From a virus, in the IMG/VR virus record IMGVR_UViG_3300032286_000710, positions 62,001 to 126,000 of that record: a stretch of DNA of 64,000 nt. One strand, 5' to 3'. Below the pieces are notes generated by a model. It did no database searches. It was not told the origin of the DNA and saw only the letters and a program-made list of their open reading frames with translations. The first letter of the stretch is position 1; each line of letters starts with the position of its first letter. Made by a program: the position numbers and the translations under genes. This document shows, piece after piece, positions 17,807 through 55,607 of this stretch.

Positions 17807-19626
17807 TATCTATTTAACTCATATGTCCAGTTTACAGTTAGTGAATATCTACCAGACTTAGCATCCCAACTCTCTTGAGGTGGACTAACAAAGTATTTTC
17901 TTATACCTTGCTCTTGTACAGGACTATAAGCATGAATTATTGAGTTGATCTGACTCTTAAATGGTTCATTTAAGCTTGGTTTAGATAAAACTCCAAACTG
18001 CCGTATCCCTTGTGTTCCAGCAACGCCAGATGAATAATACTTATCCATAACTAATTCTACATTTAGATTACGCTGATATTCTGTTCTTCCCCCTATATAT
18101 TGAAGAACTGGTCCAGTTTGTCTTCCAATAACTGGTATAACTGCAAATACATCGCCGGGGTAAGTATCACTATAAGTAATACTCTCAGATAAAGCTCCGC
18201 TAATTATATTTGTTGGGCGACTATCATATTCAACATTATATGTGATTTCACCCGTGAATTCATTACTTCCTAAAGCTATAGATAAAGGAATATGATTTAA
18301 GCCTTGATGAGTAAGAGATTGTGATCTTTTAAATAAATGGCAACTTGGTCCATACTGACCAGTATTACTAACTTGATGCCACTTATATAAAGCGTTTTGA
18401 TATTGAGTATTTACATTACCACCACCTAGATTTATGGGAGTTGTTGTGTTAGATCCCCCGTATAGTTTTCCACCAGCGGATTGACTAGACAATCCTTTAA
18501 TAGTTCCATCTATACTAACTTTGTATAGTCCAACGTCAGAACCTTTAGATAGCGACATTCTATAATCTTCATAAGCAGAACCACTAGACAATAACCAAAC
18601 ATCGGTTAAAGTAAATGTACCAGCAGTAACATCTATGGATTCTGTTCTTAGATGATTATATCCACCCCAAACTTCTTTGGCTATATTTAAATATCCACTA
18701 CCAAAATATGGGCCTAAAGTATATTCTGGAAATTGTTCATATCCAGTTGAGTTATCAGTAGATACATTATTAGTATCTTTCAAAACGCTTAGATATACAT
18801 AATTTTTAGCCTGCTCCCAAGCTTCTTTTCTTTTAGTAACAGTTCCAGTAGGATAATACATTGTTCTTCCGGTAGCACTTATATTCCTCGTTAATCTATA
18901 AGTTCTTATGGAAGTGATATCTCCATTATTGTAAGTAGTATCTGTTTTAGTTCCGCCCTTACCTTCTTCAACATCAATAGACCAGCTTTCACTATAATCA
19001 TCAATAAAACCGCTGGCGGCTAATGCTGAAGCTAATTCTACTCTATTTCCATTGTTATTTCTATATGGTTGACTATCTGTTCCCGTTGGAGTGTGCGTGG
19101 AGTTGACTAAACCATCAGAAATAATTTTATCACCTTGATCTAAGAGTACTTCTGCTCTTAAATTAATAGTATATTTACAAGTATTTACATATAGTCCTTC
19201 TTCAAAACTTATAGATTGCACCGTAGGGTAGAATCTCAACACTGGAGTTTCGGGACCAGAGCCATTATTTTCAAGATCATCATCTACTTTTACTGGTAGT
19301 AATTCAAAACGTTGTCCGTCTTTTTTAAAGACTTCTCTAATTAAATTTTGTTTATGTATTATAGAAGCCATGGCACTGCCAATACCTACTGATTCATGTG
19401 CTGGCCTGTTATAAGTTTTTGCCCAAGGGGCTGAAGGGTCGCTTATAGCAGCACCAGCACTATAAAAGGGAGATCCTTCGTCAGACAAGATAGTGCCATT
19501 AAGAGTTATATCATAATAACTGCCGAGCATACCGGTTTTATTTCTGATTGCATTCTGTGTAATAGAAATAAATGGAGTGGGTCTTAAAACTATATAAGTA
19601 CCCGGCTGATATTCAATAGATAGCAT
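17806..19626 (-). CDS. Tail structural protein (distal-tail region)
   Basis: A 606-residue protein whose start codon overlaps the stop of the giant gene by one base. It opens MLSIEYQPGTYIVLRPTPF, followed by a YPTVQSISFEEGLYVNTCKY segment near residues 145-165 and ends with YSLTVNWTYELNR, a strand pattern that recurs in tail and tail-tip proteins. The middle part contains SWSIDVEEGKGG and TYRLTRNISATGRTMYY, also like barrel strands. No enzyme motif or signal is present. Its position between the giant tail protein and the hub supports a distal-tail or hub-adjacent role. A precise homologue is not recognised. Confidence 0.55.
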   Translation of the reverse strand: MLSIEYQPGTYIVLRPTPFISITQNAIRNKTGMLGSYYDITLNGTILSDEGSPFYSAGAAISDPSAPWAKTYNRPAHESVGIGSAMASIIHKQNLIREVFKKDGQRFELLPVKVDDDLENNGSGPETPVLRFYPTVQSISFEEGLYVNTCKYTINLRAEVLLDQGDKIISDGLVNSTHTPTGTDSQPYRNNNGNRVELASALAASGFIDDYSESWSIDVEEGKGGTKTDTTYNNGDITSIRTYRLTRNISATGRTMYYPTGTVTKRKEAWEQAKNYVYLSVLKDTNNVSTDNSTGYEQFPEYTLGPYFGSGYLNIAKEVWGGYNHLRTESIDVTAGTFTLTDVWLLSSGSAYEDYRMSLSKGSDVGLYKVSIDGTIKGLSSQSAGGKLYGGSNTTTPINLGGGNVNTQYQNALYKWHQVSNTGQYGPSCHLFKRSQSLTHQGLNHIPLSIALGSNEFTGEITYNVEYDSRPTNIISGALSESITYSDTYPGDVFAVIPVIGRQTGPVLQYIGGRTEYQRNLNVELVMDKYYSSGVAGTQGIRQFGVLSKPSLNEPFKSQINSIIHAYSPVQEQGIRKYFVSPPQESWDAKSGRYSLTVNWTYELNR

Positions 19627-22600
19627 TATTTACCTCTTACTTGTAAGTTAAGATTGTCGTTGAGACTTCCTATCCCGCTAGGTGCAAATAGATTTAGAGA
19701 AGATGTGATTCCAGAGGGACTTTCTATGAATAGATTTAGTCCAGATGGAGAGGTAGAAACCACATCTGTCATGACGCTACCGTACAATCCTAATGTATTA
19801 TACACATAAGCTGAATTTTCAACATCTATAAATAGGTTGATTTGTGAGCTTGGGGGCGGGTTTTGCCCTTCACAAAACAAAATCATGCCATTTTCTAGAA
19901 TTTGACCATACTGGTACTGACCGATAATAGATTCAATATATGGCCTATGAGATATAAAACCTCTTGTTGATGGATCTTGCCCTGATACTTCAACGAAAAT
20001 TTCACCATCTGAGTTAGAAACCACTACTCCGCTACCATAGTATGAGATATTATTACCACTATTACTAAATCTTAAGTTTACTATATGATCATCACCTGAC
20101 CATGTATCGCCAAATACCTTTGCGTCTATCCATGCACCAGAATTAGCCAGAGATGGTCGCTGCTTTCTTAACATTATATCTTTAGAGTATGCTGCCCCGA
20201 TATTTAGTATGCCGTCGCCAGAAGCTGTATAACATCCGGCAAATATTGTATAATCAGCATCACTTCTATAGGGTCTAGATAGGTATACATTACTACCAAA
20301 TCTTTCAGAAATTGATAGAGATCCACTTGGAACCTTTGGAGATGGTAAAATCTTTTCTATCAGCTTCCATCCCTGTTTCTTGTTTTCCCAATCAGTAATT
20401 TTATTTTCATAAACATAAATCGCTCCGGTATTCTTACCATAAATACCATCACTATTTAGTGTTGCTCTAACTCCAGAATATCCTAAATCACTAACATTAT
20501 AAGTTGGTATATCAAACTGTGGGTTGAAGTTCTTTCGTGCAAACGAGCCACTATTAAACACAACCCCATAGTAATTTCCATAATCATGATTTGGGGAGCC
20601 AACAATTATAGTATCATTTTGCATAGCAACAGAATGACCAAAGTGATCTGATAATGTATTAACTCCGCTTAGTTGTCCCATTAATGATTGTGGTCTAAAT
20701 TTCCTAGAGCATGTCCAAGAATCTTCGCTAGGCTTTTCAAACATATAGACTGAGCCAGCACCACCATCATACCCAAGACGTAATTGCAATCCACTTGACC
20801 AAGGTGTAATACTTTCAGAACCAAATGCAGAGAATGGAGAACCAACAAGAATCTTTTCTCCTCTTACACATACTGAATATCCGAATAAATCACCGCGATA
20901 TCCAGATGGCAATTTGTCTAGATCTAAATAATCGTAACCTTTATCTTTTAATAGCTGTGGTAATCCACCAGCAATAGTAGCGTCAGAATACATAATGCCA
21001 TCTACAATACCACTAAATCTAGCGGTAGACGCGCTACTTATTTGACTACTCAAGAATCCACTTATAAATTGATTTTTAATTTCAAGTATTTTCTTTTCTT
21101 CTGTTTCGTCTTTCCAAGGAATATCTGGACGAGTTACATACTTAGGATCATATTGTGATTCATATTGGTTAATAGTAGATAGTGCTACTGTTCCAGCATT
21201 ACCAAAATTGACATTAAGACCACTTAAAGCACCCTGACCAAAGTATTTACTTGGACTTCCACGTTCTGGAGAAATTAATTTCTTGTATTTATCAAATTGT
21301 CTACCATATGTTGTTGATGGGAAATTTGTTTCTGGATATAAACTTCTGATAAAAGTGAGAGTATCTACTGGTATTACTCCACCTTCATCTGCCACATATC
21401 TACCCTGTAATATACTAGAGTCTGTTATAACAGTAATTCTTGATCTAGCAACACCAACATTAAATGGTGAGAGTATTTCTACTTCTTGTGCCGCCACAAC
21501 TGGACCATCATCTATAAGTTGACCACCAAGCCCCTTGGCTAAACACTTATCTGAACAGTACTTGGTATTATCTGTGCTTATTGGTCTAATTAGTTGAACA
21601 GTTTCTGTAAAAGCTGGTTCTTCTTCAGATATCTTAACTGTCTCAAATTGATTTGTTGGAATTTGCGATCCAACTACAGTATTAGATTGATAAACTGGAA
21701 TTAATACTCCAGATATACCCATTAATTTAGTTGTCTTGGGAATAAATTGGGAACCAATTGCAAATCTCTGAATGGCGCAAGAGATATAAACATTTATATT
21801 ATCTACACCACTGCTAACCTGTAAATCAATAGTTTTTGTTGCAGTCCCTTCGCATCTGGCAGTCGGAACACCATTTTCAATTAATTTGTAAGGGGTAACT
21901 TCTCCATCACTATTTAACTCATTCACTTGAGAAGAAGCGTAGTCAATAGGATATGGTAAATTGGGAAGATATGTGGCATTTTCAATATCAATATCTAAAG
22001 GTGCAGTTTCTGATGATGTTTCAGATAGTGTTGTTATAAATAGTTTGTAGCCAGAGCAAGGAATAGCTGGAATAGATAGCTTTGTTACTCCAGCATTCAT
22101 GTCCCAATATATATTTGTATTTGTTTTTGGAACGTCATCATAAATTGGTTGATCATTATAGGCTACCCCTATGCCACCAGATGTTAGTTTTAACGGATAG
22201 AAAGTTACTCCAGCTGTGAAGTATTCGATCTTATTATTATTAAATTGTCCACCAGCTTGATGACCATCATTAATTTCAAAACCAGAATTGTTCTGTGCAT
22301 ACTGATCTAAGTATGTAAGGAAAACTGGCCCAACGGATACGCCGAGCTTAGAGCATAATGTTTGTGCGTTCTTAAGACTATCTAGATCATTACCACAAGT
22401 TATAATAAGTTTTTTATCTCCATAGGCTAACCAAGTTTTAATGTCGCCTAATTCTAGTGAAGATGGTTGACTAACTATATTTGCGACCCAAGCCACATTA
22501 AACACGTTAGTAAGACAAACTCTATCTGCTACTGTGAATGATGTATCAACATCTTCTACTACCTTATTTCCATTTCTGAATACAGTCTTCAACAACGAAT

Positions 22601-25600
22601 TAGCATATCCATCAGTGAAGCTTTTTCGCCCCGTCCAAGCACCGAGTTGGGCAATATCAGAATAGCCCTTAGTCTTTAGATTCTTTGATACTAGATTAGC
22701 ATAAAATTTAACATTTTGATCCCCTTGACCACTATATAACGCGGATTTAGATTCTGTTTCAACACCAGCCAAAATTATAATTTTAGATGTTGTTTTTGCG
22801 TATGAATGTTCAACACAATAGTAGTTCTTATCTGCTACAACTTCTTTAGATATATAGGGTGTTACATTTATCTTAGAAATTCCCTTGGCTTGTAATAAAC
22901 CTTCTTCTGGTTGATAGAATCTTCCTTCACTGATGCTGCTGCTAACATTTAGAGATAGGCCCGATGGAACAGTGCCAGAATCCCATATGAAATCTGGAAC
23001 TTGACTAACTGGGCTACCAAATGTATAGTATGGTGTGCTTGTATATACAGTTTCGTAAATTGGAAAGTTTTTATACTGTGCTGGAACTGCTGGGTAATTC
23101 ACATCATAAGTAACTTTCTCTGCCGCTGCCAATAATGGAATCGGTTCAAAATTAGCTTTTGGATTATCTGGGAATTCAGTATCACCACATGCGGGTTTAT
23201 ATGATCCAAATATGAAAGGCCAGTTATGACCGTATATTAATAATCCGCCGTTTGTGCAGCAAGATGCATTCCATTGAGATCTCAAATCACCGTAATGAAT
23301 AAGAGGCATTTCGCACCGTGACTGAATTTGTACTGTAGTTTGCTCGGGAGTACAATCACCAACTTCTTCGCATGGCATTATTTCTTTGTAGCCGGGATAA
23401 TAAATCTTGATATCAGCCACACCACTTCCTCTCAAAGAAGTTCTTTGAACATAAGTGGATGTAGAACCTTGTGGTATAAAAGATGGAATAATATTATTGA
23501 AAGTTGAGTATCCAACTGGTAAAGATTCATATTTACTTCTAGCTGGAACAATTCTCATGCGAGAGTTGAGTCTTTCAAGTAGCTTATTAAGAATGTCATT
23601 AGAGTTTTTGTATTTTCCAGCATCTTCCCAGATTGGATCATTTGCTACTAAAACTAAATTTCTATCTCCAAGTGCTAACCAATTATAAATATTATTGTAT
23701 ACTTCATCGCTTTCAGTTATTGCGTCCTCTTTTGGAGTAATAATGAATACTAATCCGGCTTCCTTTGGAATACTATTCTGAGCAAATTCTGTTTTAACAA
23801 AGTTTTTATCTTCAAAGATATCAGCTAAATAATGGAAATGACCAGAATCTGGAGTGTTATTACTATCAATTTCATGTAAATTTCCAAATCGCCCGTACTC
23901 TATAGCTTGATTATGTGGATAATACTTACGTGACTCAAATACATGAATTGATCCAGCATTAACGCTAGATGACCAAGATGATTTGACATTGTTTGGAACT
24001 ATACTATATGGATCATTATATCCAGTTGAATACTTACCACCATAGTTATAATAAATATTACTATCATTATATAGATTCAAACTATCTGTTGGTGCGCTAG
24101 CGACTACAACGCTACCATCTTCGTTAACGTCAACACTATAACCTAATCTTGAAGTTGGCGCGACAGCATCGGGAATAAATGACCAACTCCCATTTGGTTG
24201 CATACTGCTATAATCAAACGTATAGATATTTTGATATTCTTCTATACCAAGATCAACTCTAGACTTGAATTTATGTTCTGGTGTTAATGCCAGATATAAA
24301 GATTTAATATCTTCAGAATTTTTAATGGATTGATCGTATGAGTATAATGCAGGAGCGTATTTTTCTGGATAATTTCTAATCACCCAATCTGGTAGTAATG
24401 AATAGAACCTATCTCTTTCTTCTTCTTTTCTCTCGTACATTGTTACAGCTTGATTTATATATGGAGAACCAATTACTACTAATTCTCCATCATCGCTGAT
24501 GCTGACAGCGTGACCAAAACGATCTGGATTTGAATAAGTAACATTTGGAGATCTTATTTCTTGTATAAGATTCCAGTTGCCACTTTCTTTTTCAAAAATA
24601 TACGCTTTTCCGCCACTTTCTGGAGGAATATTGAAAGCCCCAAGATTAGTATTAAATGTTCCAACGCTAGCGGTTAAAAATCTAACTTGATTATTTTTTA
24701 CTAGGTTGCCGGTATCTAAAACTTCAGAAAGTATTGATGTGGACATTTCTACCCAATTTTCAGCATCATAAGTATCTGGAATATACTCAATTACTTGTCC
24801 AGATTCCTTTACTCCATTGAAATCTCTAAGCCCATTATCAAAACTATATTTCTTGTAAAAACTAATAAATTGATCAATAGCTGGCTCTAGAGAATCTCTT
24901 CCTAAAGAACTACTGTTATCTACATATAAACCAAGGATTGGAGGTATATTATTATGAATCTTAGTAGCGTCATAGGGGAAAGCTTCAAAGAAAGCATCTT
25001 TCATTCCACTTACAATAGCTTCTGTTTTTGTAAGATTTAATTCATACCCATCATTTCTACTTATAGAATTTAAAACCATGAAATCCGGTTTATCTGGAAA
25101 GCTTGGCGGAACAATATCTGGACTGTCAGCAATTGGTTGACAAATCATTAACTTAGTATTGAATTTAATTCTTGGATTGCCAAAGTAATTAAATATTATA
25201 TCTTTATCTTTTATGGCCTCAAGAACTTCTTCATATCCTATAGTTCTGAATGGTCTATTAGGAAGTGGTGCGTGAATTCTAGGTGTAAATTCATCTGTGA
25301 AAACCATTAATCCAATATTAACACCGGATGGTGGATTATTATCAAATATTCTTGGAGTCCATTTAGCACTTGGGCCACCGACAACAATTGTCTGACGAGA
25401 ATTCTCGCCTAATGACTTTTCATTTTTATTTACAGATAGATCTACTGAATGTCCGAACTGTCTTCCCTCTTGACCAACAAACCACTTTGTTTGAGTTGGT
25501 TTTAAGTTATACGATAGACCCAGATCTAGTTCTGATTGAGTATAGTAATCCTTCAACATGCCAGATGGTAATGTTAGGGCGGTTTCTAATACCCAAGGAG

Positions 25601-28600
25601 ACTTGTAATTATCCAAAGGCCAATTATATCCACTCGGTCTTTCTTGTCTTCTATATACAAATACAGTGCCAGCTTCTTGTAGTGTTAAGTTTGATCCAAC
25701 CCCACTATTATATACTATTGATCTTTTTGGTGATCCTATTGCTAGTAAATTATCTTTAGATGCAATTGATTTTCCAAATTCATCGCCAGAAGTTTTAGTA
25801 ACACTAGATAGTAATCTAAATCCACTGTAATCTGTTGAAACTTGATTGGTTTCATTTTTGTTATATTCTACTTCTACTATTTCTGTTGGTATATCTATAG
25901 GATTTGTAGAACCAGACTTGCCAGTTATATTGATAGAGTAGGGGAGGTTGGGAGCCAAACCTGTATATTTTCTAATTCCATAGAAGTGACCACTATATGG
26001 CATAATGTCATAAACAACTGTGTTGAGAGATGACTCAGTGGAGATGAAGTCATTACTTTCTGTAGAAAGTGTAAATAGGTTTTCTGTGGCTATATTAGTA
26101 GCTTCGTTTTGACTAATAGTATGTCTGAATGACCCACTAGGATAAGAAAGGTTTGTATATGTAGATTTAGCTCTGAATATACCGCCATCAACACAAACCT
26201 CTGGGTCATACCACTTTACTCCATGAATATCTACCACTGCTTCTGAGCATCTGTTGTTATAAGAGCAAGTTCCATAGCATAGTAAATCAACTCCACGAAT
26301 ATTATCGTCAGAATCAACATAAGCATAGCTATTATCTTGAACTGTTATATTTTGACCAACATTATCATGAGTCCACTTAATAGATGCACTACTGTTAGCA
26401 AGAGAATCAGATATTGGATAATTTACAGTATGTAAGCTTAAAGATCCAGAATCTACAACTCTACTAAAATCATCGCTCAATACAAACAGTGGGGTGTAGT
26501 TATTTATTTCAGTTGAAAATTCTTGTCCATATACATAGAATGGCATACTAGAATATGGGTAAAAATCTTGAGACTTAGATATTCCCCGAATAGCCAAGTT
26601 TATATATTCATTTTTAACAATATCATCTTGTACTAAAGTGCTTAAATTGACATATGATTCAGAATAGTATCCAGATCCATATATAGATAAGGGCATATTT
26701 GTTTCTGTCATGAATTGACCACTAACAGATAATCCTAATCCCTTTATTGGAGATGAGCCAAACATATCTCCAAATACTTGATCTTCTGTAGAAATTGATC
26801 CAATAGATATAGTATGCATAGTTAGATATGGACTATAGCAAGGATATCCGCTACTACCAACAAACATATTAAGACCAGATCCAATTGGTCCATTTCCACT
26901 AACAAATAGATTAACACCAGAGTAAATAATAGGCCCATTTTCTGGAGCAAATAGATTTAACTTTGATACTTGATATTGTTGACCGCTGGTAACTAAATTT
27001 AATTGACCACTTGATTTTTCACTAATATATATAGCATCGTCTAGCCGAACATTTGAACTATGTAATTTAATCAGTGATGAAAATGGTCTTCCAGATGGAT
27101 AAACTAAATCGTATTGCAAAAACATATCGTCTATGTCTTGAGAAAAATATTTTTCCTTAAATTCTTTTGTATACGATTCTTTATCAAATAAAGCCCAAGG
27201 CTCTGAATCATCTAACAAATCCGTAAAAGAGAATTTACTAGTAAGTTTTCTTATACATCCAGATGGTTCTAAATAATGAGTTGATCTATTTATTAAACCA
27301 AATGATTTACTTGGTCTATCGGCATTATCTTGAGTCTTGGCATATAAACTAACAATTAATTTGGGGCCAATTTTCCCATTTGGCCATACTATATCATTGC
27401 TTGTGTCATGCTCTACAATAGTATCAACACAAATAGCTTCTTCATTGAATTTATAACCCCGTGGCAATGTTTTAGATATTCTAGGAGCAATTGCATAGAA
27501 TCTATCTTTGTCAATAGTTGGAATATTAGATAGATTAAATCTTAAAAAATCATTTTCTATTTGAGTGTGATATGCAACTCCAGAAAGATTTACATTTGAC
27601 GGGAGTGGTAAATTAGTAATTTGACTATAACCAGAACCATTGTGCTTCAAATTAAAACTTAAGAAATCCTTGCTATCTCGCTTGGTGAAAAAATCAAAGT
27701 CTGGAGAGAATTGACATACTCTGAAGTCTCCAAGATGCCATAACGAAATGTCATCATCAACATATGAATATTGATTTGATCTTGCATTGGCTGAGAATAT
27801 ATTGTTAAAGTGCATCCTATGAGAAGAAAAGAACTCAGATGCTGTTAATTGATTTAAAAAGCCAAAAGCGTTTGGATTATATTCTACAATATTGCATCTA
27901 CCATTAGACCAGCCCACTTCATGCAAGAACATTGGCAACGGAGGGGATGCTGAATACTGATTTGAATAACCAATATAAGAAGTACCACCAGTTAATATTT
28001 TAGTTGATATTTGTGGCTGAGATGCCGCCCTCATATTATTGAATGATGTAGCTAACTCATTCTCTGTATACAATTTATATCGATAAGTATTATCATCATT
28101 ATATGTAATTAAGACGGATAATGGAAATTGATACTGACTTATATTTTGAGTATCACTTAGTGTAATAATATTGTCATTAGAGTCTTTAACTTTAAGTTTT
28201 AACACTCCGCTTTCATACACAAGAACAATTGACCAAGTTATATTATTTTCATAAGCAAAAATTAAATTATTATTTAATAGCGTATTTGTTACTTGGTCTG
28301 GAGTAAATCTAAGGAATAAAGTGAATCCAAAATTTTTAGAAGTATCTCCATAATTAGTAAATGAGTCATTATTTAATATGTATAGTTCTAATTGATCATC
28401 TGATGATATTCTAGCTGCTCTATCAAAAGCATCAAATATATTATCTTTCCAAGATATGGTTTTATATGGGGTTGTAGTAAGAGTAAAAAGCTGATTAGAA
28501 GAATATCTCCAGCCAAAATTAGATAAAATATTTAAATTGTTCTCTGTTTGACCAACAACAGTTCCGCTTGATGATAGGATATTGTCACCAACGACGTTTG

Positions 28601-30839
28601 TGAAATCTACATAAGAAGTTAGGAATGGGCTTAGTGAAGGAGTATGATTAAACGAAAGATCAAATTGTTTTGGATTAAAATAATCTCTACCAGAAAGAAC
28701 ATTTCCATCATTACCCCTCCATCGTCTGGAATAATTTGATTTTATATACTCTGGTGTTGTTAATCCTGTTAATACTCCGCTAAGTTTTACATTGGTGTTT
28801 ACCTGTGTTCCATTAACATTTGATGATGGTAATAGAGTAATATTTTTACGTAAAGCATTTTTATCTACCGGACTACCAAGAGTATGCATTTGAAGTGCAT
28901 TAGCAGGCTTATAATATACAACTAATTTGACACTGCAAATAGATGCCCCACTAGGAATAGGACAAATATCTAAATATAGATTTTCAAAAAGAGAACTAAT
29001 AGAGTATTTCTTATATCCAAGTTCATATGGATTTTGATAAATGTCTAGTGGGATAGTATATTCTTGGAAAGATGTACTATTAACCAGCGGGGTGCTATTA
29101 AGTATATAATGATCACCTTCTGGAGAAGAGTCTTTTTTAAAGTACTCGGATTGATCTGAAAGACTACTATCAGAAATACCAAATGTCTTATAGGTGTAAC
29201 CAGAGATATCTGGCACTGAATTAGTATCAAAAACTAGCGCACCGCTATTTTGTACAAATCCGCCAACTGCCTGTGTAACATTTAATAATTTATCATCACT
29301 GTATCCAACAACATCTATTGTATAGTCTGGAGTACCGGTAGCTTTTTTAGCAATTACTTTTAGTTCTAAACTGTCTATATCAAAGAAGTTATCGTTATCT
29401 AAATAATTTACAAGTTTGGCATCATTAAAGTCTTTACTGCCGCCAAAAGAGAATGCCCCATCTATATAATTGTCATAAGCTTCTCTGTCGGGCTTTGTAT
29501 TAAACTTTAATACTATTCTTCCACTATCTGAAACCGGGGAAGAATTTATTACAGTAATATAATCTCCAGTTAAGTCATTTCTAATTTTATTTAGTAAATG
29601 GGAAGCACCAGAAGATGCTGTGTTATCATAGTTTATGTTATTTGTAGTTGATCGCCAAATGCTGCTAGCCTGTGGATAAATACCATTATCAAAATTATAT
29701 GTTAATAGTTCAGTTGGAAGTAGTGTTCTCTTTTCTCGTTCAGATTTGTCTCTAACTTGAGAGTAAAAGTTTAGGTAACTATCACGAAGTATTCCAACAC
29801 CGCCACTGCTACCAATTTCAAGCGATGATATATTTAGGCTAATGAATGGATTGGGGCTTATATTATTTGGATTGATTATACACGATTGTTCGTAACCAGT
29901 ATCAAAATTGCTAGTAAATGGGTAAGCATTACAATCATATGCTATATTTAATGTAATAGTATAAGAACCGGCAGCATCCATCAATGGATATTTGCTGTCC
30001 CAAGTTGGTAGCAATAGATTATTAACTAGCGGTTTAGATAAATAGGTAGTATAATAAGTATCACCACGGATTAGCATATCTTCATATTGAATTATTAAAT
30101 TGCCGCTAGGATCTTCAAATTTAATATCATATATTTTATACTGTTGTGGTTTTCTTTGTATATAACTATCAAATGGTGCTGATGCTCTAATAGCTAAATA
30201 GCTTAGTTTAGCAACTGATACTGGCTTTGCAACGCGAAACTTATACTGAATATCACCAGAAGTAAAAATTGTAATAGTAAGAGCAAATGATTTTGAATCA
30301 TCAGATATAACAGATCCAACCTTGCCATTATCTACATAGTCTCCAGTAAAAACCCCCTCATCAATACTGCTATATATGTTAGTTGGATTAAATATATTAT
30401 TTTCAACTTTGTAGACATTTATACTAGTATTAGTAAGTTTACTTTTGAAAGAAATATCTTGAATAGGATATAGTTTTTCATAAGCTCTAAAGCCGGGTTT
30501 GTATCCAGCAAACTTATCTGTATAAGAACTCTTAAAATTTCCAGAAGAGGATATTCTTGAATTAACACCAAGGTTGGCGGTTGTATATCCCCTAATATTT
30601 CCAATGCCAAATTCAGAAAAATCTTCTTTGGGCGAGAAATCGACATTCTCATTAGCTAATAATTTAGCAGTACCAGATAGCGAGGTCTTTAGGTTTCTAT
30701 AAACACCTTCTTGTAATCTGATAGTTGCAATAGAAGAGGGTCTAGACGAAAGACCATGATTAAAAGATAAAGTTGCTAGCAGGCGACTATCAGCACCTAG
30801 CCTAGTCTTATCGTTTGTACTGCAAAGTAAAGAACTCAT
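19626..30839 (-). CDS. Giant virion protein with FG-GAP propeller motifs and vWA-like insert
   Basis: At 3737 residues this is the largest gene here, overlapping the tape-measure gene by 4 bases (ATGA). Residues about 814-984 look like a LamG/concanavalin-type domain. Seven FG-GAP-like motifs appear: FGKSI...LLAIGSP (about 1690), FGHSV...IVVGGP (1805), FGHAV...LVVIGSP (2105), LGYSV...VVVASAP (2235), FGYSV...KILVGSP (3320), FGHSV...TIIVGSP (3400) and FGSNV...IFAGCY (3512). Several are followed by a closing strand such as AGSVYMFEK. Near 1970, LYVDNSSSLGRDSLEPAID has the DxSxS pattern of a vWA metal site. Two GATase-like segments (about 2360-2430 and 2684-2836) share a W-L-A-x-G-D strand. LNLF repeats lie near 1294-1330 and at the C-terminus. 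It probably forms tail-tip or side-fibre adhesion structures; the role is inferred from position and domains. Confidence 0.65.
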   Translation of the reverse strand: MSSLLCSTNDKTRLGADSRLLATLSFNHGLSSRPSSIATIRLQEGVYRNLKTSLSGTAKLLANENVDFSPKEDFSEFGIGNIRGYTTANLGVNSRISSSGNFKSSYTDKFAGYKPGFRAYEKLYPIQDISFKSKLTNTSINVYKVENNIFNPTNIYSSIDEGVFTGDYVDNGKVGSVISDDSKSFALTITIFTSGDIQYKFRVAKPVSVAKLSYLAIRASAPFDSYIQRKPQQYKIYDIKFEDPSGNLIIQYEDMLIRGDTYYTTYLSKPLVNNLLLPTWDSKYPLMDAAGSYTITLNIAYDCNAYPFTSNFDTGYEQSCIINPNNISPNPFISLNISSLEIGSSGGVGILRDSYLNFYSQVRDKSEREKRTLLPTELLTYNFDNGIYPQASSIWRSTTNNINYDNTASSGASHLLNKIRNDLTGDYITVINSSPVSDSGRIVLKFNTKPDREAYDNYIDGAFSFGGSKDFNDAKLVNYLDNDNFFDIDSLELKVIAKKATGTPDYTIDVVGYSDDKLLNVTQAVGGFVQNSGALVFDTNSVPDISGYTYKTFGISDSSLSDQSEYFKKDSSPEGDHYILNSTPLVNSTSFQEYTIPLDIYQNPYELGYKKYSISSLFENLYLDICPIPSGASICSVKLVVYYKPANALQMHTLGSPVDKNALRKNITLLPSSNVNGTQVNTNVKLSGVLTGLTTPEYIKSNYSRRWRGNDGNVLSGRDYFNPKQFDLSFNHTPSLSPFLTSYVDFTNVVGDNILSSSGTVVGQTENNLNILSNFGWRYSSNQLFTLTTTPYKTISWKDNIFDAFDRAARISSDDQLELYILNNDSFTNYGDTSKNFGFTLFLRFTPDQVTNTLLNNNLIFAYENNITWSIVLVYESGVLKLKVKDSNDNIITLSDTQNISQYQFPLSVLITYNDDNTYRYKLYTENELATSFNNMRAASQPQISTKILTGGTSYIGYSNQYSASPPLPMFLHEVGWSNGRCNIVEYNPNAFGFLNQLTASEFFSSHRMHFNNIFSANARSNQYSYVDDDISLWHLGDFRVCQFSPDFDFFTKRDSKDFLSFNLKHNGSGYSQITNLPLPSNVNLSGVAYHTQIENDFLRFNLSNIPTIDKDRFYAIAPRISKTLPRGYKFNEEAICVDTIVEHDTSNDIVWPNGKIGPKLIVSLYAKTQDNADRPSKSFGLINRSTHYLEPSGCIRKLTSKFSFTDLLDDSEPWALFDKESYTKEFKEKYFSQDIDDMFLQYDLVYPSGRPFSSLIKLHSSNVRLDDAIYISEKSSGQLNLVTSGQQYQVSKLNLFAPENGPIIYSGVNLFVSGNGPIGSGLNMFVGSSGYPCYSPYLTMHTISIGSISTEDQVFGDMFGSSPIKGLGLSVSGQFMTETNMPLSIYGSGYYSESYVNLSTLVQDDIVKNEYINLAIRGISKSQDFYPYSSMPFYVYGQEFSTEINNYTPLFVLSDDFSRVVDSGSLSLHTVNYPISDSLANSSASIKWTHDNVGQNITVQDNSYAYVDSDDNIRGVDLLCYGTCSYNNRCSEAVVDIHGVKWYDPEVCVDGGIFRAKSTYTNLSYPSGSFRHTISQNEATNIATENLFTLSTESNDFISTESSLNTVVYDIMPYSGHFYGIRKYTGLAPNLPYSINITGKSGSTNPIDIPTEIVEVEYNKNETNQVSTDYSGFRLLSSVTKTSGDEFGKSIASKDNLLAIGSPKRSIVYNSGVGSNLTLQEAGTVFVYRRQERPSGYNWPLDNYKSPWVLETALTLPSGMLKDYYTQSELDLGLSYNLKPTQTKWFVGQEGRQFGHSVDLSVNKNEKSLGENSRQTIVVGGPSAKWTPRIFDNNPPSGVNIGLMVFTDEFTPRIHAPLPNRPFRTIGYEEVLEAIKDKDIIFNYFGNPRIKFNTKLMICQPIADSPDIVPPSFPDKPDFMVLNSISRNDGYELNLTKTEAIVSGMKDAFFEAFPYDATKIHNNIPPILGLYVDNSSSLGRDSLEPAIDQFISFYKKYSFDNGLRDFNGVKESGQVIEYIPDTYDAENWVEMSTSILSEVLDTGNLVKNNQVRFLTASVGTFNTNLGAFNIPPESGGKAYIFEKESGNWNLIQEIRSPNVTYSNPDRFGHAVSISDDGELVVIGSPYINQAVTMYERKEEERDRFYSLLPDWVIRNYPEKYAPALYSYDQSIKNSEDIKSLYLALTPEHKFKSRVDLGIEEYQNIYTFDYSSMQPNGSWSFIPDAVAPTSRLGYSVDVNEDGSVVVASAPTDSLNLYNDSNIYYNYGGKYSTGYNDPYSIVPNNVKSSWSSSVNAGSIHVFESRKYYPHNQAIEYGRFGNLHEIDSNNTPDSGHFHYLADIFEDKNFVKTEFAQNSIPKEAGLVFIITPKEDAITESDEVYNNIYNWLALGDRNLVLVANDPIWEDAGKYKNSNDILNKLLERLNSRMRIVPARSKYESLPVGYSTFNNIIPSFIPQGSTSTYVQRTSLRGSGVADIKIYYPGYKEIMPCEEVGDCTPEQTTVQIQSRCEMPLIHYGDLRSQWNASCCTNGGLLIYGHNWPFIFGSYKPACGDTEFPDNPKANFEPIPLLAAAEKVTYDVNYPAVPAQYKNFPIYETVYTSTPYYTFGSPVSQVPDFIWDSGTVPSGLSLNVSSSISEGRFYQPEEGLLQAKGISKINVTPYISKEVVADKNYYCVEHSYAKTTSKIIILAGVETESKSALYSGQGDQNVKFYANLVSKNLKTKGYSDIAQLGAWTGRKSFTDGYANSLLKTVFRNGNKVVEDVDTSFTVADRVCLTNVFNVAWVANIVSQPSSLELGDIKTWLAYGDKKLIITCGNDLDSLKNAQTLCSKLGVSVGPVFLTYLDQYAQNNSGFEINDGHQAGGQFNNNKIEYFTAGVTFYPLKLTSGGIGVAYNDQPIYDDVPKTNTNIYWDMNAGVTKLSIPAIPCSGYKLFITTLSETSSETAPLDIDIENATYLPNLPYPIDYASSQVNELNSDGEVTPYKLIENGVPTARCEGTATKTIDLQVSSGVDNINVYISCAIQRFAIGSQFIPKTTKLMGISGVLIPVYQSNTVVGSQIPTNQFETVKISEEEPAFTETVQLIRPISTDNTKYCSDKCLAKGLGGQLIDDGPVVAAQEVEILSPFNVGVARSRITVITDSSILQGRYVADEGGVIPVDTLTFIRSLYPETNFPSTTYGRQFDKYKKLISPERGSPSKYFGQGALSGLNVNFGNAGTVALSTINQYESQYDPKYVTRPDIPWKDETEEKKILEIKNQFISGFLSSQISSASTARFSGIVDGIMYSDATIAGGLPQLLKDKGYDYLDLDKLPSGYRGDLFGYSVCVRGEKILVGSPFSAFGSESITPWSSGLQLRLGYDGGAGSVYMFEKPSEDSWTCSRKFRPQSLMGQLSGVNTLSDHFGHSVAMQNDTIIVGSPNHDYGNYYGVVFNSGSFARKNFNPQFDIPTYNVSDLGYSGVRATLNSDGIYGKNTGAIYVYENKITDWENKKQGWKLIEKILPSPKVPSGSLSISERFGSNVYLSRPYRSDADYTIFAGCYTASGDGILNIGAAYSKDIMLRKQRPSLANSGAWIDAKVFGDTWSGDDHIVNLRFSNSGNNISYYGSGVVVSNSDGEIFVEVSGQDPSTRGFISHRPYIESIIGQYQYGQILENGMILFCEGQNPPPSSQINLFIDVENSAYVYNTLGLYGSVMTDVVSTSPSGLNLFIESPSGITSSLNLFAPSGIGSLNDNLNLQVRGK

Positions 30840-33800
30840 ACTACTCCCGAATTTTCCTTTAGTCTTCCGCCGTCACCGGCAACTAATCTAGTTTTGACAA
30901 GGTTAAAAATCTCTTGTTTTACTTGAGATGTTACAGCCTTTAATAAACCGCCATCATTTAGGTTAATATTTACGTTTGTAGAATCTAACTTGATAGTGAT
31001 CTTACTATCCCTTAAAGACTCAACATTCTTAGATAATTCTCTATTGAAATTTTCAAGGGCGGTAGCAAAGTTTGACATTCCTTGGCTTTGCTGTTCTGGA
31101 CCATTACTACCTTGACCTCTATATCTAACCACGCCACCGCTTGCCATAAGGGCTGTGCCACCACTACTAGATACACCTCCAAGCCCACTATTCATCGCTT
31201 GTAATATTTGTAAATTATTGCCCCGCTGGACTGCACCCCTATTTACTACAAATTCACCGGGAGTTAGCATCGCTGGGATAGTATCAGTTCCGCGAGGCAC
31301 GAAAATACCACGACTTGCATATACCATGCCACCTCTAGACATTGCTTTTTGGTCTTCTATTGCTTGAGCCTCTGCCGCAGCCTTATTACCCTTGGCCATA
31401 ACCTCCTTAAACTTCAAATCAGCACTATTTACATTAATTGTGGCTGTTTCAACTTGCATTTCGGCCATTTGAGTTCCCATATTGCCAGTTTCGCCTAGCA
31501 TTCCACCTAATTCACGAAGCCTAGCCTTACTAGCCTCTTCTTCTGCGGTAGTTCCAGCCATAACTTGGGCGGCTCTCATGTCTGTTACACCCCTAGATGA
31601 TAAAGCAGCATTGGCAGCAGTTTCTGATAGACCACCAGCACCAGCTAATTGCTGACCATATAAACTTTGAACGCCAGCTTCTTGTTGACGTTGAATATCT
31701 TGAGATGCCATTCCAAGAGCATCAGCACCATAAAGATTTTGTAATCTGGTATCACCACTAGCTATAGCAGCGGTAGCACCAACGGCAGATTGCTTCTTGA
31801 AAAAATCTTCTACATCTCCCTTAATAAGAGATTCCATAGAATCTTTTTCAAGTTTATTCTTTTCTTGAGTAATCTTAAGTTGTTCTTCTTCTAGCTTGAT
31901 TAAGCCCCTAATGGTATCAATTTGTGTTTTGTATGCTTTCTGTAGATCTTTTTGTGCTTCATCTGCTTCAACGCCAGATCTCTTTTCCATACCGCCCTGC
32001 TGAGTTCTTCTTCCTTCTATATTAGAGAATCCTGCCATAATCTCAGCATTTCTTCTTCTTAAATCTCCAACATCTCCACTCTTCATATTTGTTAATCCTA
32101 GTCTGCTGCTTTCAACATTAGACTTAGCTAACAAATTATCTTTTCTCTCTCGTCCAGTAACGGCTTGACCGCCATACTTACCTTGAATTTCTCTACCTTC
32201 CATCACAAGATCAAGAGCTTCTTGTTGTGCTGCTACAAGATTTCTCTCAGAATCAATTCTCTTCTTGGTAAAGTCAATTAATACCTGTTCTGCTTTTGCC
32301 CTTTCTTGAGAAATTTTCATTATGGGTTCAAGCATTTTTTGCTGAGATTCAGTGAGCTTATCTCCAAAAGCACTTAAATCTCCACCAATTATCTTATCTA
32401 CATCACCCGGTTCTAATTCTAATGATTGTATAACTTTCTTGAGGTTTTCTTTTGCTTCACCATTTCCCATATCTTTAGTTAATTCTTCTGCAAATTTATC
32501 CTTTAGCTTATTAGCATTTAAACCCTTAAAATCTTCAGCTTTCATTGACTTTTTGATATTGGCAAATGCTTGAGTATAATTAGACTGAGCTTTAGTAAAT
32601 GCAGCAACATTGCCTTCAAACTTTTGAATATATTTTTCAGAAGATCCAAACTCTCTAAGATTATCTGAAACTCCCTTTACAGCACTTTGGATTTCACCAG
32701 AATCCATAGCCTGTGCAGCACTACTCATTGCTGATTGTAAAAACTCAACGTCATTTACGAATGATGATCCGCCCACTTCTAAACCGGCAGAGAATTTACT
32801 CATGCTAGCTGATAATGCAGTAGCGGTTGCTGTTGCAGAACGTAAACCAAGATTTAAGGCATTATATAATTCTTTCTGACGTTTAACTTCTTTTTCTATA
32901 TTCTCTATTTCTTTATTAACTTGTTTTAACTGTTCTTCCATTTGAGCAGCAGCGGCAAAAGCTGCTTTAGCTCCTTGTTCATCTCCCTTTAATGCTAAGT
33001 CTCTACCTAATGCTTGTTGAGATTTCATTCCAGCCAATAAGCCTTTAGTGGCTTCGGCTTTAACCTCATTTGTACTTTTACCCCTAGCTACTCCAGATCT
33101 AATAGCGGCTTGTCTAGCTGGAGCTTCAATATTAAAAGCTTCTTGCTGTTGCTTGGCGGCTGAGTTTATTTGATCTGCACTTTCTTTTCCTAATCTTGTA
33201 TTACGCGCCCCCGTAGTCTCCATAAATGGATTTAAACCACCTAAAGCTCCAACATTTCTTAGAAAACCACTATCACTATAAGCATTTGATCTATTTTTGA
33301 CATTTTCTTTCGCAAATGAAGAAGCCCGATCCATTTGAGCATTTGCTTCTCCGCTTTTAGCTCTAATCTTTGCCAAAGCATCAGAAGCTGAAATAGTTCC
33401 TTTTTCAAAATCGCTCATTGCTTCTGTAGAAACTTTTTGAGCTTCTTCTAATGACTTTTGAGTTTTTACCGCTCCAGCTTGGGCTGCGGCTAACGCTACA
33501 ACGCTATCAGTTGTTGTTAAAAATGATTGACTAGCGTTAATAAGACCAACGCTAAAACCAACAATAGCACCAGCTGCTGCACCCACCGCTGTTCCTAGAA
33601 CCGGAATAATACTACCAATAGCAGCACCAGCCGCTGTTGCTGATAATACTCCACCAGCACCACCGGCACCTTTTTCAAAATTTGCTTTTTCAAGGGCAAC
33701 CTTTTTAGCACCTTCTACGTCGCCTGATTCTATAGATTTTTTTAATCTACCATCAAAATTGTAAATACTTTCTGCAACAATCTTAAAAGCTTCTTGAGCA

Positions 33801-36800
33801 AGGTATGCACCACCAGCAATAGCGAGTAATGGGCCAGCCAGTTGAGTTACAGCATTAACAGTTTTCATAATGGCTACAGATGAATCTCTGCCAAATCCCA
33901 ATCCTTGAGATGCGCTAAGAATACCTTTTTTAGCACCTGTACCTAAACCACTACCGCCAAAAAATTTCATAATAGACTGCGATTTTAATTCTATGCCAAA
34001 GGCTTGTAAAGCAAATAATACTCCAGCTAGCGTAGTTACAATTCCAAGAAAAGAATGTGATAATTTAGTCAAAGCAGATGAGTTTTCGTCAAGGGGAGGA
34101 AGCATGGCTTGTAATGACGCTGTAACCATTGATACAGCAATAGCTGCTCCACCAATATCTTTTGGCATCATTCCACCTAAACCGCCAGAGCTTGGGCTTT
34201 GAGATTGCCTTTCACGATTTTTAATTCTAGCTTGGGTATAAGATTGTTGTCTATCTGCTTCTCTAAAATTAGATTGAGTGCCACCCTGTAATGTAGAAGT
34301 TACGGCGGTAGTTGCAGCTTGTTTATTGGATTTAGCTTGTGCTATTAAAGCACTTTGCCTATCCATCAACTGGGTTTGTTTGTCTATAGTTACTGCGTGT
34401 TTTTTCTTTATACCTTCTAATTTTTGTTCTTCAGCAATAGCTTTCTTATCTATTTCAATCCTTTTCGACTCAGCATCAATTTTCATCTTAAGGATTTTAT
34501 TAGCGGCTGGACCAGTTGCAGCTGCTTTTCCTTGTTGTGCGGCTAGAGTTGCTAGCACTTTGTCGTAATTGCTAATTCTTCCATCTAAAGCCGAAGATTC
34601 TTGATATAAAGCATTAGTAATCTTACCTTGTTTGTCTAATGAGGTAGATAATATTTTGAGATAATTACCAGTTTTTTTCATTTCTTGGGATGTGGCAGCA
34701 ATTTCACTCTGAATTGCTTTATTATCAGCTAATCCAGAAATACTAGATTTAACACTACTAGATGTTACCCCACCCCCAGCAGCAAAGTGTTGAACAACTC
34801 CACCGCTAGCATATTTGCCAACTTTATTCATCCTATTTAACGCACCGTAACCAATCTTTTGTGCAGATGATCTATTAACAACAAACTCACCGGGAGTTAA
34901 TAAGGCGGGAACTGTGTCAGTACCAACTCCACCACCAGCTGCAAATTCACGGCGACCTTCATAGTCACGCATAGTCTTGCCTCGTACAGCTAAAGATGAG
35001 GCTATTCTGTTCTGATTATTAGCTTGATTTTGCTGCCATCTTCCATAAGCTGCGGACTGTGGTGGCTTATATGTTGTAAGCCATTTTGGGGGTTTAATGC
35101 TACCTTTTCCACCCCAACTGGTATATATAAAATCTCCCCTATCGTTTCTTGAAGTAAATAAATCGATAGCATCTTTTTCGCTTAGAGATGGATTACCCTG
35201 CAATTCTCTCATTGCTTTAACAACGTCAGAAGCTAAATATTTTTCAGTTCCTTGATTTATTACTTCTCCACCTTCTGCAAACTTTTGAATAAGGCCACCA
35301 AGATGTGCTTGTACTGCTTTTTTACCTTTAAAAGCGTCTATAGTTCTGGGCATCACAGATTTTTCTGAAGACATTGGCCCCATAAATTCTGTTTGATTAT
35401 TTATTAATCTTATATAATCATCAAATACGTCTAATGCTAATTGATTATTAATTTTTTTGGTAAATTCATCTGAAGAAATATTAGTTCCTCTATGCCCCGG
35501 ACTAACTTTAGCATCTACATAATTTATACCAGCTAAATTTCTATACATGCTACCTATTGGTCTAACACCTCTAGTAAAATCGAATGGTCTTCTAGATTCA
35601 GATCCAGAAATAGGCTTATCATTAAATGAATCTAAAATAATTTCAAATAAAGATCCAATTAAACCTTTTGGCAAAGATTTTCTAAAATCTTCTGTAAATG
35701 TTGGTGGAGAAGCTCCAGATACACCCATGCTATTAGCAAGTTGACCAGCACTTTGAATTACGGCATTTTCTATTGCTGGACCAAGAGCATTATTAAATGC
35801 TTGGTATTCATCTTTAGTTACCCCTTCTGCTTTGGTCTGATAAATTTTAGAACCAAAACCAAGAGCTTGAGACATTATTGCATCTAATTGCCCTTTTGGG
35901 GTATTACCGCTATATCTTTGTAATAAACTAGAATTACCAAGAGGAGGAATGCCGGGAGTAGCGGTCAATACGCTTCTAGCATTTACGGAAGCTGATCCAT
36001 TTATGGCAGTAGCTGTATCTGGCTTTTGATTGTTTAATAAATCGCCTACAGCCATACCTGCATTACTTTGAGTAGCTATTCCTCCAGCTGCATATCGGTT
36101 ATTATTCATAGCAGCTAGTGTTCCAGCACCCATCTTATTAACGCTACTCTTGCGTATAACGAACTCGCCGGGAGCTAACATTGCTGGCACAGTATCGCCA
36201 TTACCACTACCGGGAACTAATCCGCCCCTAGCAAACCCAAGAACTTTACCGCCCTTATTATATGTTCTGCCAGAAGCAGCACCGCTCATCATACCACCAA
36301 AGAAACTACCCATACCCTTAACTAGTTTAAATGCTGTTAAAGCAGCAAGCATTGGTAATAGGGGCTTGATAGAATCTCCGATTTTAATTAATGCTGAAGC
36401 TAATGATAATGCTGTATTTGCCATCACTTGGAAAGTAGAAGTTTCAGTAATACTACGTACTAATGCCAAGAATTCTTCTTTAACTTTCATTATTCTAATC
36501 GCAAGTGCCGCTTGTGAAGATGCAGCATCTTGAGTTAAAGAATCGCCCGCCTTCATTGCAACATTAAGCGCAGATTGAGCAGTAGAAAATTGCTGTAACA
36601 GTGGAAGAACTTTACCAATCTGTCTGAATCCACCAAGCTCTTCTGCAATTCTAATGAAAGTAGTATCACCTTCACCAAGTCCAGCTAGTGCTTCGCTTAG
36701 TTTTTTAATAGCCTCATATGGGCCAACGAACTTACCATTCAAGTCTACAAGCTCAACACCAAATTGTTTTAAGAACTCAATAGTCTTGGGTCGCTGAATA

Positions 36801-37606
36801 CGTGTGAAAATAGTACGTAAACCAGTACCAATACTTTCAGCACTTTCTCGGGTTGTGGCTCTTACACTAGTAAATAATGCAAGAAGTTCATTAAGATCAC
36901 CACCAGATGCTTTGAACACACCGCCCGTTCTACGAATAACGTCAATTAAGTCACCAGCTTCAACGGCGAAAGCACCAGCAACAGCATTAATAGAGCCTAA
37001 TTGTTTTTCTAATGATCCAACCCCCTCTTTGAATTGAGCTAGAACAGCAATAGCACCTTCGGCTGTTTCTGTTATACTATCAAAGTTTGGAGCTAATGCA
37101 GACTTTGCTAAAGTCTTTAAAGCTACCGCTGTATCTTCAGCACTTAAACCAGCTTGGGCCAAGATAGTAGAAACATTAAGTAAATCAGAAGACGCAACAC
37201 CAAAACCAGTAGATAAATCAGTAATCTGTTTAGTTAGTCCACGAAGCTGAGTCAAACTTTTTCCAGTGACCTGAGAGACTTTAATTAATTGTCTCTCAAA
37301 GTCAATGGATGTTTGAACAGCGTCACTAAGAGTGCTAGTGAATAAACCAACCGCCCTTGTGGCAATAGAAAAGGCAGCAAAACGCCTAATGGATAGAGCA
37401 AATGCTTTACCCATGCGTTCTGCTGCTGTTGTTGCTTGATTAGTTGCTTGAGCTACTTGCTGAATTTGTTTTTGAGCTTGTCCAGCATTCTGGACTTGTA
37501 TGTTAACACTAACGCCATTTAACTGGCTTTGTATTTGTTGTACAACTTGCTTAACATTATTCGGGGCTTGTAACTGTAATTGTGCGGTCAGTACGAATTT
37601 GGACAT
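30836..37606 (-). CDS. Tail tape-measure protein
   Basis: A 2256-residue protein that sets tail length and is later ejected with the DNA. After an N-terminal coiled-coil region, residues about 95-380 match the PhageMin_Tail domain (SIDFERQLIKVSQVTGKSL, ASSDLLNVSTILAQAGLS, LGGFRQIGKVLPLLQQF). Three copies of a DTVPAxLxPGEFVxxxSxxxK motif lie near residues 470, 900 and 2110, a hallmark of tape-measure proteins. Hydrophobic, Ala/Gly-rich segments near 1176-1200, 1255 and 1330-1362 could cross a membrane. Long Gln/Lys/Glu-rich coiled coils fill the rest. AAGGAG precedes the start. By the usual rule of about 0.15 nm per residue the tail would be roughly 340 nm long. Confidence 0.93.
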   Translation of the reverse strand: MSKFVLTAQLQLQAPNNVKQVVQQIQSQLNGVSVNIQVQNAGQAQKQIQQVAQATNQATTAAERMGKAFALSIRRFAAFSIATRAVGLFTSTLSDAVQTSIDFERQLIKVSQVTGKSLTQLRGLTKQITDLSTGFGVASSDLLNVSTILAQAGLSAEDTAVALKTLAKSALAPNFDSITETAEGAIAVLAQFKEGVGSLEKQLGSINAVAGAFAVEAGDLIDVIRRTGGVFKASGGDLNELLALFTSVRATTRESAESIGTGLRTIFTRIQRPKTIEFLKQFGVELVDLNGKFVGPYEAIKKLSEALAGLGEGDTTFIRIAEELGGFRQIGKVLPLLQQFSTAQSALNVAMKAGDSLTQDAASSQAALAIRIMKVKEEFLALVRSITETSTFQVMANTALSLASALIKIGDSIKPLLPMLAALTAFKLVKGMGSFFGGMMSGAASGRTYNKGGKVLGFARGGLVPGSGNGDTVPAMLAPGEFVIRKSSVNKMGAGTLAAMNNNRYAAGGIATQSNAGMAVGDLLNNQKPDTATAINGSASVNARSVLTATPGIPPLGNSSLLQRYSGNTPKGQLDAIMSQALGFGSKIYQTKAEGVTKDEYQAFNNALGPAIENAVIQSAGQLANSMGVSGASPPTFTEDFRKSLPKGLIGSLFEIILDSFNDKPISGSESRRPFDFTRGVRPIGSMYRNLAGINYVDAKVSPGHRGTNISSDEFTKKINNQLALDVFDDYIRLINNQTEFMGPMSSEKSVMPRTIDAFKGKKAVQAHLGGLIQKFAEGGEVINQGTEKYLASDVVKAMRELQGNPSLSEKDAIDLFTSRNDRGDFIYTSWGGKGSIKPPKWLTTYKPPQSAAYGRWQQNQANNQNRIASSLAVRGKTMRDYEGRREFAAGGGVGTDTVPALLTPGEFVVNRSSAQKIGYGALNRMNKVGKYASGGVVQHFAAGGGVTSSSVKSSISGLADNKAIQSEIAATSQEMKKTGNYLKILSTSLDKQGKITNALYQESSALDGRISNYDKVLATLAAQQGKAAATGPAANKILKMKIDAESKRIEIDKKAIAEEQKLEGIKKKHAVTIDKQTQLMDRQSALIAQAKSNKQAATTAVTSTLQGGTQSNFREADRQQSYTQARIKNRERQSQSPSSGGLGGMMPKDIGGAAIAVSMVTASLQAMLPPLDENSSALTKLSHSFLGIVTTLAGVLFALQAFGIELKSQSIMKFFGGSGLGTGAKKGILSASQGLGFGRDSSVAIMKTVNAVTQLAGPLLAIAGGAYLAQEAFKIVAESIYNFDGRLKKSIESGDVEGAKKVALEKANFEKGAGGAGGVLSATAAGAAIGSIIPVLGTAVGAAAGAIVGFSVGLINASQSFLTTTDSVVALAAAQAGAVKTQKSLEEAQKVSTEAMSDFEKGTISASDALAKIRAKSGEANAQMDRASSFAKENVKNRSNAYSDSGFLRNVGALGGLNPFMETTGARNTRLGKESADQINSAAKQQQEAFNIEAPARQAAIRSGVARGKSTNEVKAEATKGLLAGMKSQQALGRDLALKGDEQGAKAAFAAAAQMEEQLKQVNKEIENIEKEVKRQKELYNALNLGLRSATATATALSASMSKFSAGLEVGGSSFVNDVEFLQSAMSSAAQAMDSGEIQSAVKGVSDNLREFGSSEKYIQKFEGNVAAFTKAQSNYTQAFANIKKSMKAEDFKGLNANKLKDKFAEELTKDMGNGEAKENLKKVIQSLELEPGDVDKIIGGDLSAFGDKLTESQQKMLEPIMKISQERAKAEQVLIDFTKKRIDSERNLVAAQQEALDLVMEGREIQGKYGGQAVTGRERKDNLLAKSNVESSRLGLTNMKSGDVGDLRRRNAEIMAGFSNIEGRRTQQGGMEKRSGVEADEAQKDLQKAYKTQIDTIRGLIKLEEEQLKITQEKNKLEKDSMESLIKGDVEDFFKKQSAVGATAAIASGDTRLQNLYGADALGMASQDIQRQQEAGVQSLYGQQLAGAGGLSETAANAALSSRGVTDMRAAQVMAGTTAEEEASKARLRELGGMLGETGNMGTQMAEMQVETATINVNSADLKFKEVMAKGNKAAAEAQAIEDQKAMSRGGMVYASRGIFVPRGTDTIPAMLTPGEFVVNRGAVQRGNNLQILQAMNSGLGGVSSSGGTALMASGGVVRYRGQGSNGPEQQSQGMSNFATALENFNRELSKNVESLRDSKITIKLDSTNVNINLNDGGLLKAVTSQVKQEIFNLVKTRLVAGDGGRLKENSGVV

Positions 37607-55592: not shown

Positions 55593-55607
55593 ATTAAGCT
55601 CCAGTAA

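Follow-up and report, generated by a model that had tools for sequence, protein, structure and literature searches.

Seven FG-GAP units (PF01839) form the integrin alpha propeller, including the forms with an I domain, such as alphaX and alphaL, and FG-GAP propellers are also known in bacteria (PMC3192720). In integrins, the I domain follows the end of blade 2 (PMC12422189; PMC3192720), and the spacing between the glycine and the proline of the Cage motif is 13–20 (PMC3192720). Proteins with FG-GAP_2 (PF14312) repeats, found in bacteria and phages, are built from the same A-B-C-D unit. One of them, gp108 of Sinorhizobium phage Phosso (PV764938.1, L243:6220–17298), annotated as hypothetical, has laminin-G-like stretches in addition to about 35 FG-GAP_2 units (Pfam E = 1.5e-172). 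Fold matches in BFVD include FG-GAP proteins from giant viruses of algae and amoebae and from uncultured Caudovirales, e.g., A0A6J5S3H5, labeled “FG-GAP repeat.” For FG-GAP propellers in phage tails, we found no report in the open literature, most subscription journals lying outside the scope of this search.

The window analyzed here is a stretch of 64,000 nucleotides, positions 62001–126000 of a 166,604-base IMG/VR virus record. On its minus strand, a gene for a giant protein of 3737 aa (19626–30839) lies directly downstream of, and overlaps by four bases, the tail tape measure gene (30836–37606, minus strand, 2256 aa; PhageMin_Tail PF10145, E = 1e-25, and PHROG tape measure families), and is followed by genes for 606, 138, 1560, and 1087 residues. 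Searches of viral contigs yielded 55 non-redundant relatives from uncultured phages, 31–85% identical to the giant protein over residues 1617–2359 (n = 55). In the relatives, the tape measure gene is likewise followed by that of the giant protein and then by genes for about 600, about 1580, and about 1000 residues. As both the adjacency to the tape measure gene and the gene order are conserved, in the window and in the relatives, the giant protein is most likely part of the tail tip. Queries with two parts of the protein gave no match at E ≤ 1e-3 among 50,697 phage records of INPHARED. An additional relative, L121 (VFHP01000009.1), comes from a contig of 93.7 kb assigned to a SAR202 MAG, an assignment that may be a host lead or a binning artefact. 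The phage window also carries, on the plus strand, a UDP-N-acetylglucosamine 2-epimerase gene (4326–5327; PF02350, E = 1.5e-66).

All seven FG-GAP motifs that the first-pass annotation had recognized in the 3737-residue protein were confirmed in their places. The protein matches Pfam FG-GAP_2 (PF14312) with E = 5.6e-12 and 46.1 bits, above the cut-off of 23, and a family profile was built from all seven units, with the layout FG (strand A), GAP (strand B), AG-x-V (strand C), and W... (strand D), and tested with each blade left out in turn. With the leave-one-out profiles, the seven places again scored at least 5.5 bits, and no other position in the 3737 residues exceeded 0 bits, which rules out a blade count other than seven; composition-shuffled copies of the protein reached at most about 2 bits with the family profile. 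The units, supported by the family profile and the relatives and all encoded on the minus strand, are those of blade 1 (residues 1685–1705, 25725–25787), blade 2, strands A–B (1793–1824, 25368–25463), blade 3 (2106–2127, 24459–24524), blade 4 (2229–2251, 24087–24155), blade 5 (3316–3336, 20832–20894), blade 6, which is the best Pfam stretch (3397–3417, 20589–20651), and blade 7 (3512–3536, 20232–20306). Blade 7 is the most degenerate, with AGC replacing GSP; it was missed by the profile built without it and found by all others. The repeats have the aromatic residue and glycine of strand A and, except in blade 7, the GAP-like proline after strand B, and the C–D motif after GAP, which makes a four-stranded blade, is clear in blades 1, 2, 5, and 6 and partial in blades 3, 4, and 7. 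The G-to-P spacing, 15–17 in five blades, falls within the range of 13–20 given for the Cage motif (PMC3192720). The seven units are present and colinear in 55 out of 55 relatives, where the complete propeller region spans about 1900–2300 residues, and no shorter relative was found.

Both sequence and fold comparisons relate these units to integrins. A profile of residues 1617–2359, with no integrin in the query, retrieved 19 PDB sequences at E ≤ 1, all 19 of them integrin alpha chains; the matches are weak, the best being integrin alpha6 (E = 0.0021). AlphaFold models of the two halves of the propeller region had mean pLDDT of 79.8 (residues 1617–2359) and 82.6 (residues 2360–3559). In Foldseek searches against the PDB, the sole match of the first half below 1e-3 was integrin alphaX (4nen_A, E = 7.7e-7), whereas the second half had 43 such matches, 42 of them integrin alpha, with 253 columns aligned to the best-fitting one at 4.9 Å. 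Superposition of the first-half model on complete integrin chains is poor (TM 0.17, rmsd 19), as would be expected of half a ring with large inserts, though this is no proof of it. Taken together, the sequence profile and the fold matches are good evidence for an integrin-type propeller, and, with each of the separately modeled halves matching integrin propellers, the seven blades may well close into one ring. The propeller thus appears genuinely to belong to the FG-GAP superfamily, and homology at the superfamily level is a better reading of it than convergence with integrins, which had initially been considered the likelier explanation. The calcium-binding loops of the integrin alpha propeller (blades 4/5–7) are not reproduced, the Dx[DN]x[DN]G motif being found in 19 out of 56 sequences in blade 4 and in two out of 56 in blade 6, and being absent from blades 5 and 7.

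Between FG-GAP units 2 and 3 lies an alpha/beta domain of about 240 residues (residues 1826–2067, 24639–25364, minus strand), conserved in the relatives and modeled with pLDDT mostly 80–95. It carries a DNSSS motif of the form D-x-S-x-S (residues 1974–1978, 24906–24920, minus strand), read in the sequence and conserved in the relatives. The layout proposed at first, with this segment inserted between blades 2 and 3 as the I domain is in integrins, holds in the number of units, in the type of the propeller, and in the presence, near blade 2, of an alpha/beta domain that carries DxSxS, as in I-domain integrins, but not in the point of insertion. A profile of the segment after the insert (residues 2066–2099) matches strands C–D of blades 1, 5, and 6 (P = 5e-5, 3e-8, and 7e-5, respectively), whereas the strand before the insert has no match to C–D of the other blades (P = 0.31, 0.009, and 0.17), and with the insert removed in silico blade 2 matches blades 1 and 5 over the full length (4e-10 and 1e-10). 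Hence, residues 2068–2099 (24543–24638, minus strand) are taken as strands C–D of blade 2 itself, an insertion between blades 2 and 3 is excluded, and the insert, as placed by these profiles, sits in the B–C loop and splits blade 2 between strands B and C. The position is two strands away from that of the integrin I domain. In propellers, the B–C and D–A loops lie on the same face, and from this geometry the insert may project from a side similar to that of the I domain.

The blade 2 domain is one of three interruptions of the propeller chain. In blade 3, strand C is separated from strand D by a helical insert of about 70 residues in the AlphaFold model (2141–2212, 24204–24419, minus strand). 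The long insertion between blades 4 and 5 noticed earlier was confirmed as about 1000 residues (2313–3312, 20904–23903, minus strand), comprising alpha/beta and beta-sandwich domains according to the model, the fold matches, and Pfam matches in relatives; the profile search gave no match for the last strand (D) of blade 4, and therefore the insertion is placed in or after blade 4, i.e., inside this blade or between it and blade 5. Its segment 2364–2439 (23523–23750, minus strand) resembles DUF4350 and GldG: the copy in the window gives E = 0.096, and the blade 4 insertions of relatives match DUF4350 (PF14258) in 24 out of 38 members, with the best value of 1.6e-7, and GldG-type ABC_transp_aux (PF09822) in four out of 38, with the best value of 6.8e-6. 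Unlike these families elsewhere, the segment lies inside the propeller protein of a phage and seems itself to be interrupted by a beta-sandwich. Among the fold matches of the second half, MAM-like and carbohydrate-binding-module-like ones occupy ranks 43–48 (E about 1e-3 to 2e-3), and insecticidal-crystal-protein domains are matched as well at E about 1e-3. The protein differs from integrin alpha in the insert inside blade 2, the large extra insertion at blade 4, and its being encoded by a phage; from Phosso gp108, where most of the about 35 units lack such inserts, in having seven units with domain insertions; and from the FG-GAP proteins of giant viruses and uncultured Caudovirales in size, those among the matches listed having 265–1400 residues.

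Outside the propeller, degenerate SG-x-LNLF-x-x-SG repeats were seen at 26400–27089 (residues 1251–1480) and 19629–19922 (residues 3640–3737), and they are abundant in relatives as well. A LamG-like domain in the N-terminal half seemed plausible by eye, and Pfam gave no support for it. In several relatives, the first approximately 1490 residues and the remainder are encoded by separate genes, with ATGA overlaps or short gaps, the split at residue 1490 or its equivalent, often an ATGA overlap, falling at L019 4784, L021 4835, L025 4769, L006 about 14488, L056 4057–4070, and L062 4154–4166, which supports the view that the N-terminal part and the propeller are two modules of one machine. An apparent intron in L055 (5309–6314) proved to be frameshifted coding sequence inside the blade 2 insert and is probably an assembly error.

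In comparisons of close relatives, the fewest changes fall in the propeller cores, and most inserts are less conserved. Change is fastest in residues 791–1010, in the insert of blade 3, and in parts of the insertion at blade 4. Moreover, relatives carry N-terminal fusions of adhesin-type modules, namely, RCC1, cadherin-like, Big_9, and Calx-beta; in one pair (L012:5813–10400 and L013:3259–7800), such modules are seen to diverge fast between the two. Because the cores change least and the relatives add adhesin-type N-terminal modules, we consider it probable that the giant protein is a tail-tip protein in which one FG-GAP seven-bladed propeller serves as a scaffold for inserted domains, the whole acting as an adhesin or receptor-binding hub. 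In this long-tailed phage, the giant gene product would sit at the tail tip; its second half would form a single integrin-type propeller with entire domains intercalated in its chain, that is, the alpha/beta domain with the DxSxS-like motif in the B–C loop of blade 2, the helical piece in blade 3, and the approximately 1000 residues in or after blade 4. The propeller would provide a rigid, conserved scaffold for display, from which the inserted domains and the N-terminal half would protrude and contact the host cell surface, so that the protein could bind receptors at the tail tip. The MAM-like and carbohydrate-binding-module-like fold matches may be counted in favor of the adhesin function.

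Alternatively, the propeller could be solely a building block of the baseplate or tail tip, the receptor being bound by the products of separate tail fibre and spike-like genes that are indeed present elsewhere in the window (45624–46565 and 52386–56354). The strong conservation of the giant protein across its family would suit a purely structural part, yet the inserted and N-terminal regions diverge faster than the scaffold, and relatives gain adhesin-type modules; we regard this explanation as rather unlikely, and favor the propeller as a scaffold that displays adhesive domains.

A more specific question is whether the displayed blade 2 domain is of the vWA type, as the first-pass annotation suggested for the DxSxS segment near residue 1970. 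The motif itself is real and conserved: over 53 aligned members it reads D46/E7-x-S41/T12-x-S52/G1, i.e., [DE]-x-[ST]-x-[SG], with E replacing the first D in the subgroup L097, L098, L101, L104, L109, L110, L111, and L117 (E-x-[ST]-x-S), a substitution that would be unusual for a MIDAS. The evidence does not establish a vWA fold: searches of Pfam and of PDB sequences with the insert brought no convincing match to vWA, and no isolated vWA or I domain occurred among the best 50 fold matches of the whole model of residues 1617–2359. A vWA profile, made of 77 domains found via PF00092 and PF13519, aligns over no more than 33 columns (P = 0.0055), which cover the strand with DxSxS and the helix that follows it, the remainder of the vWA fold staying unmatched. 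Of 90 overlapping windows of the giant protein compared with this profile, those with DxSxS scored best (P = 0.001), followed by residues 3059–3210 (P = 0.003). The SDR profile, used as an alpha/beta control, gave 0.33 with the insert; a response-regulator profile was left out because of antisense ORFs. Finally, the order of elements in the model is strand–helix–strand–(strand)–helix–strand (DxSxS)–helix–strand–helix; counting the main strands of the insert, the motif is on the third, whereas in vWA it is at the end of the first one, and the stretch of only about 95 residues between it and the resumption of blade 2 is too short to hold what remains of a canonical vWA domain. Taking all this into account, a canonical vWA domain is not supported.

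These data bear on the possibility of a true integrin-like head, in which the insert would be a vWA/I-type domain equivalent to alphaI, binding its ligand via a metal at DxSxS. It could draw on the conserved motif (with E for D in seven out of 53), on the rank of the DxSxS windows in the vWA comparison, and on the top fold match of the first half, alphaX being an I-domain-containing integrin. The latter match hints that the blade 2 insert may align as well, a hint on which we do not lean; no I-domain integrins other than alphaX occurred among the best 50 fold matches of the first half. However, with about 25 independent windows among the 90, P = 0.001 is only suggestive, and the insertion in the B–C loop, the end of the vWA similarity after about 33 columns, the place of the motif on the third strand with a short remainder behind it, and the lack of isolated vWA or I domains among the best 50 matches make such a head decidedly unlikely. 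The insert might also be a circularly permuted vWA domain; it is possible that its N-terminal strand and helix resemble vWA from strand 2 onward, with the DxSxS strand towards the end, and the N-terminal part alone compared with vWA strand 2 gave only P = 0.03. Rotating the vWA profile in steps of eight columns neither lengthened nor improved the match, and permuted vWA was not retained. That the insert is such a permuted domain with a working metal site on the same propeller face as the integrin I domain, an independent phage invention of a “propeller plus I domain” adhesion head, is a speculation to which we give very little credence.

That the seven units constitute two partial propellers (four and three) or an open array, as the approximately 1000 residues between units 4 and 5 could suggest, is very improbable, seven being the number of the integrin-type ring, kept in 56 out of 56 sequences, and both halves matching the same closed integrin fold.

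The conserved insertion architecture in an FG-GAP tail protein appears to be a new form of a known type of propeller. It means that phage tail proteins use integrin-type propellers as scaffolds that tolerate insertions, the conserved family concerned occurring in many uncultured phages and, at such similarity, in none of the annotated isolates. If the inserts bind receptors, host specificity would be readable from the domains carried on a fixed scaffold, and the family would provide a natural test of the repeated evolution of a “propeller plus alpha/beta insert” for adhesion.
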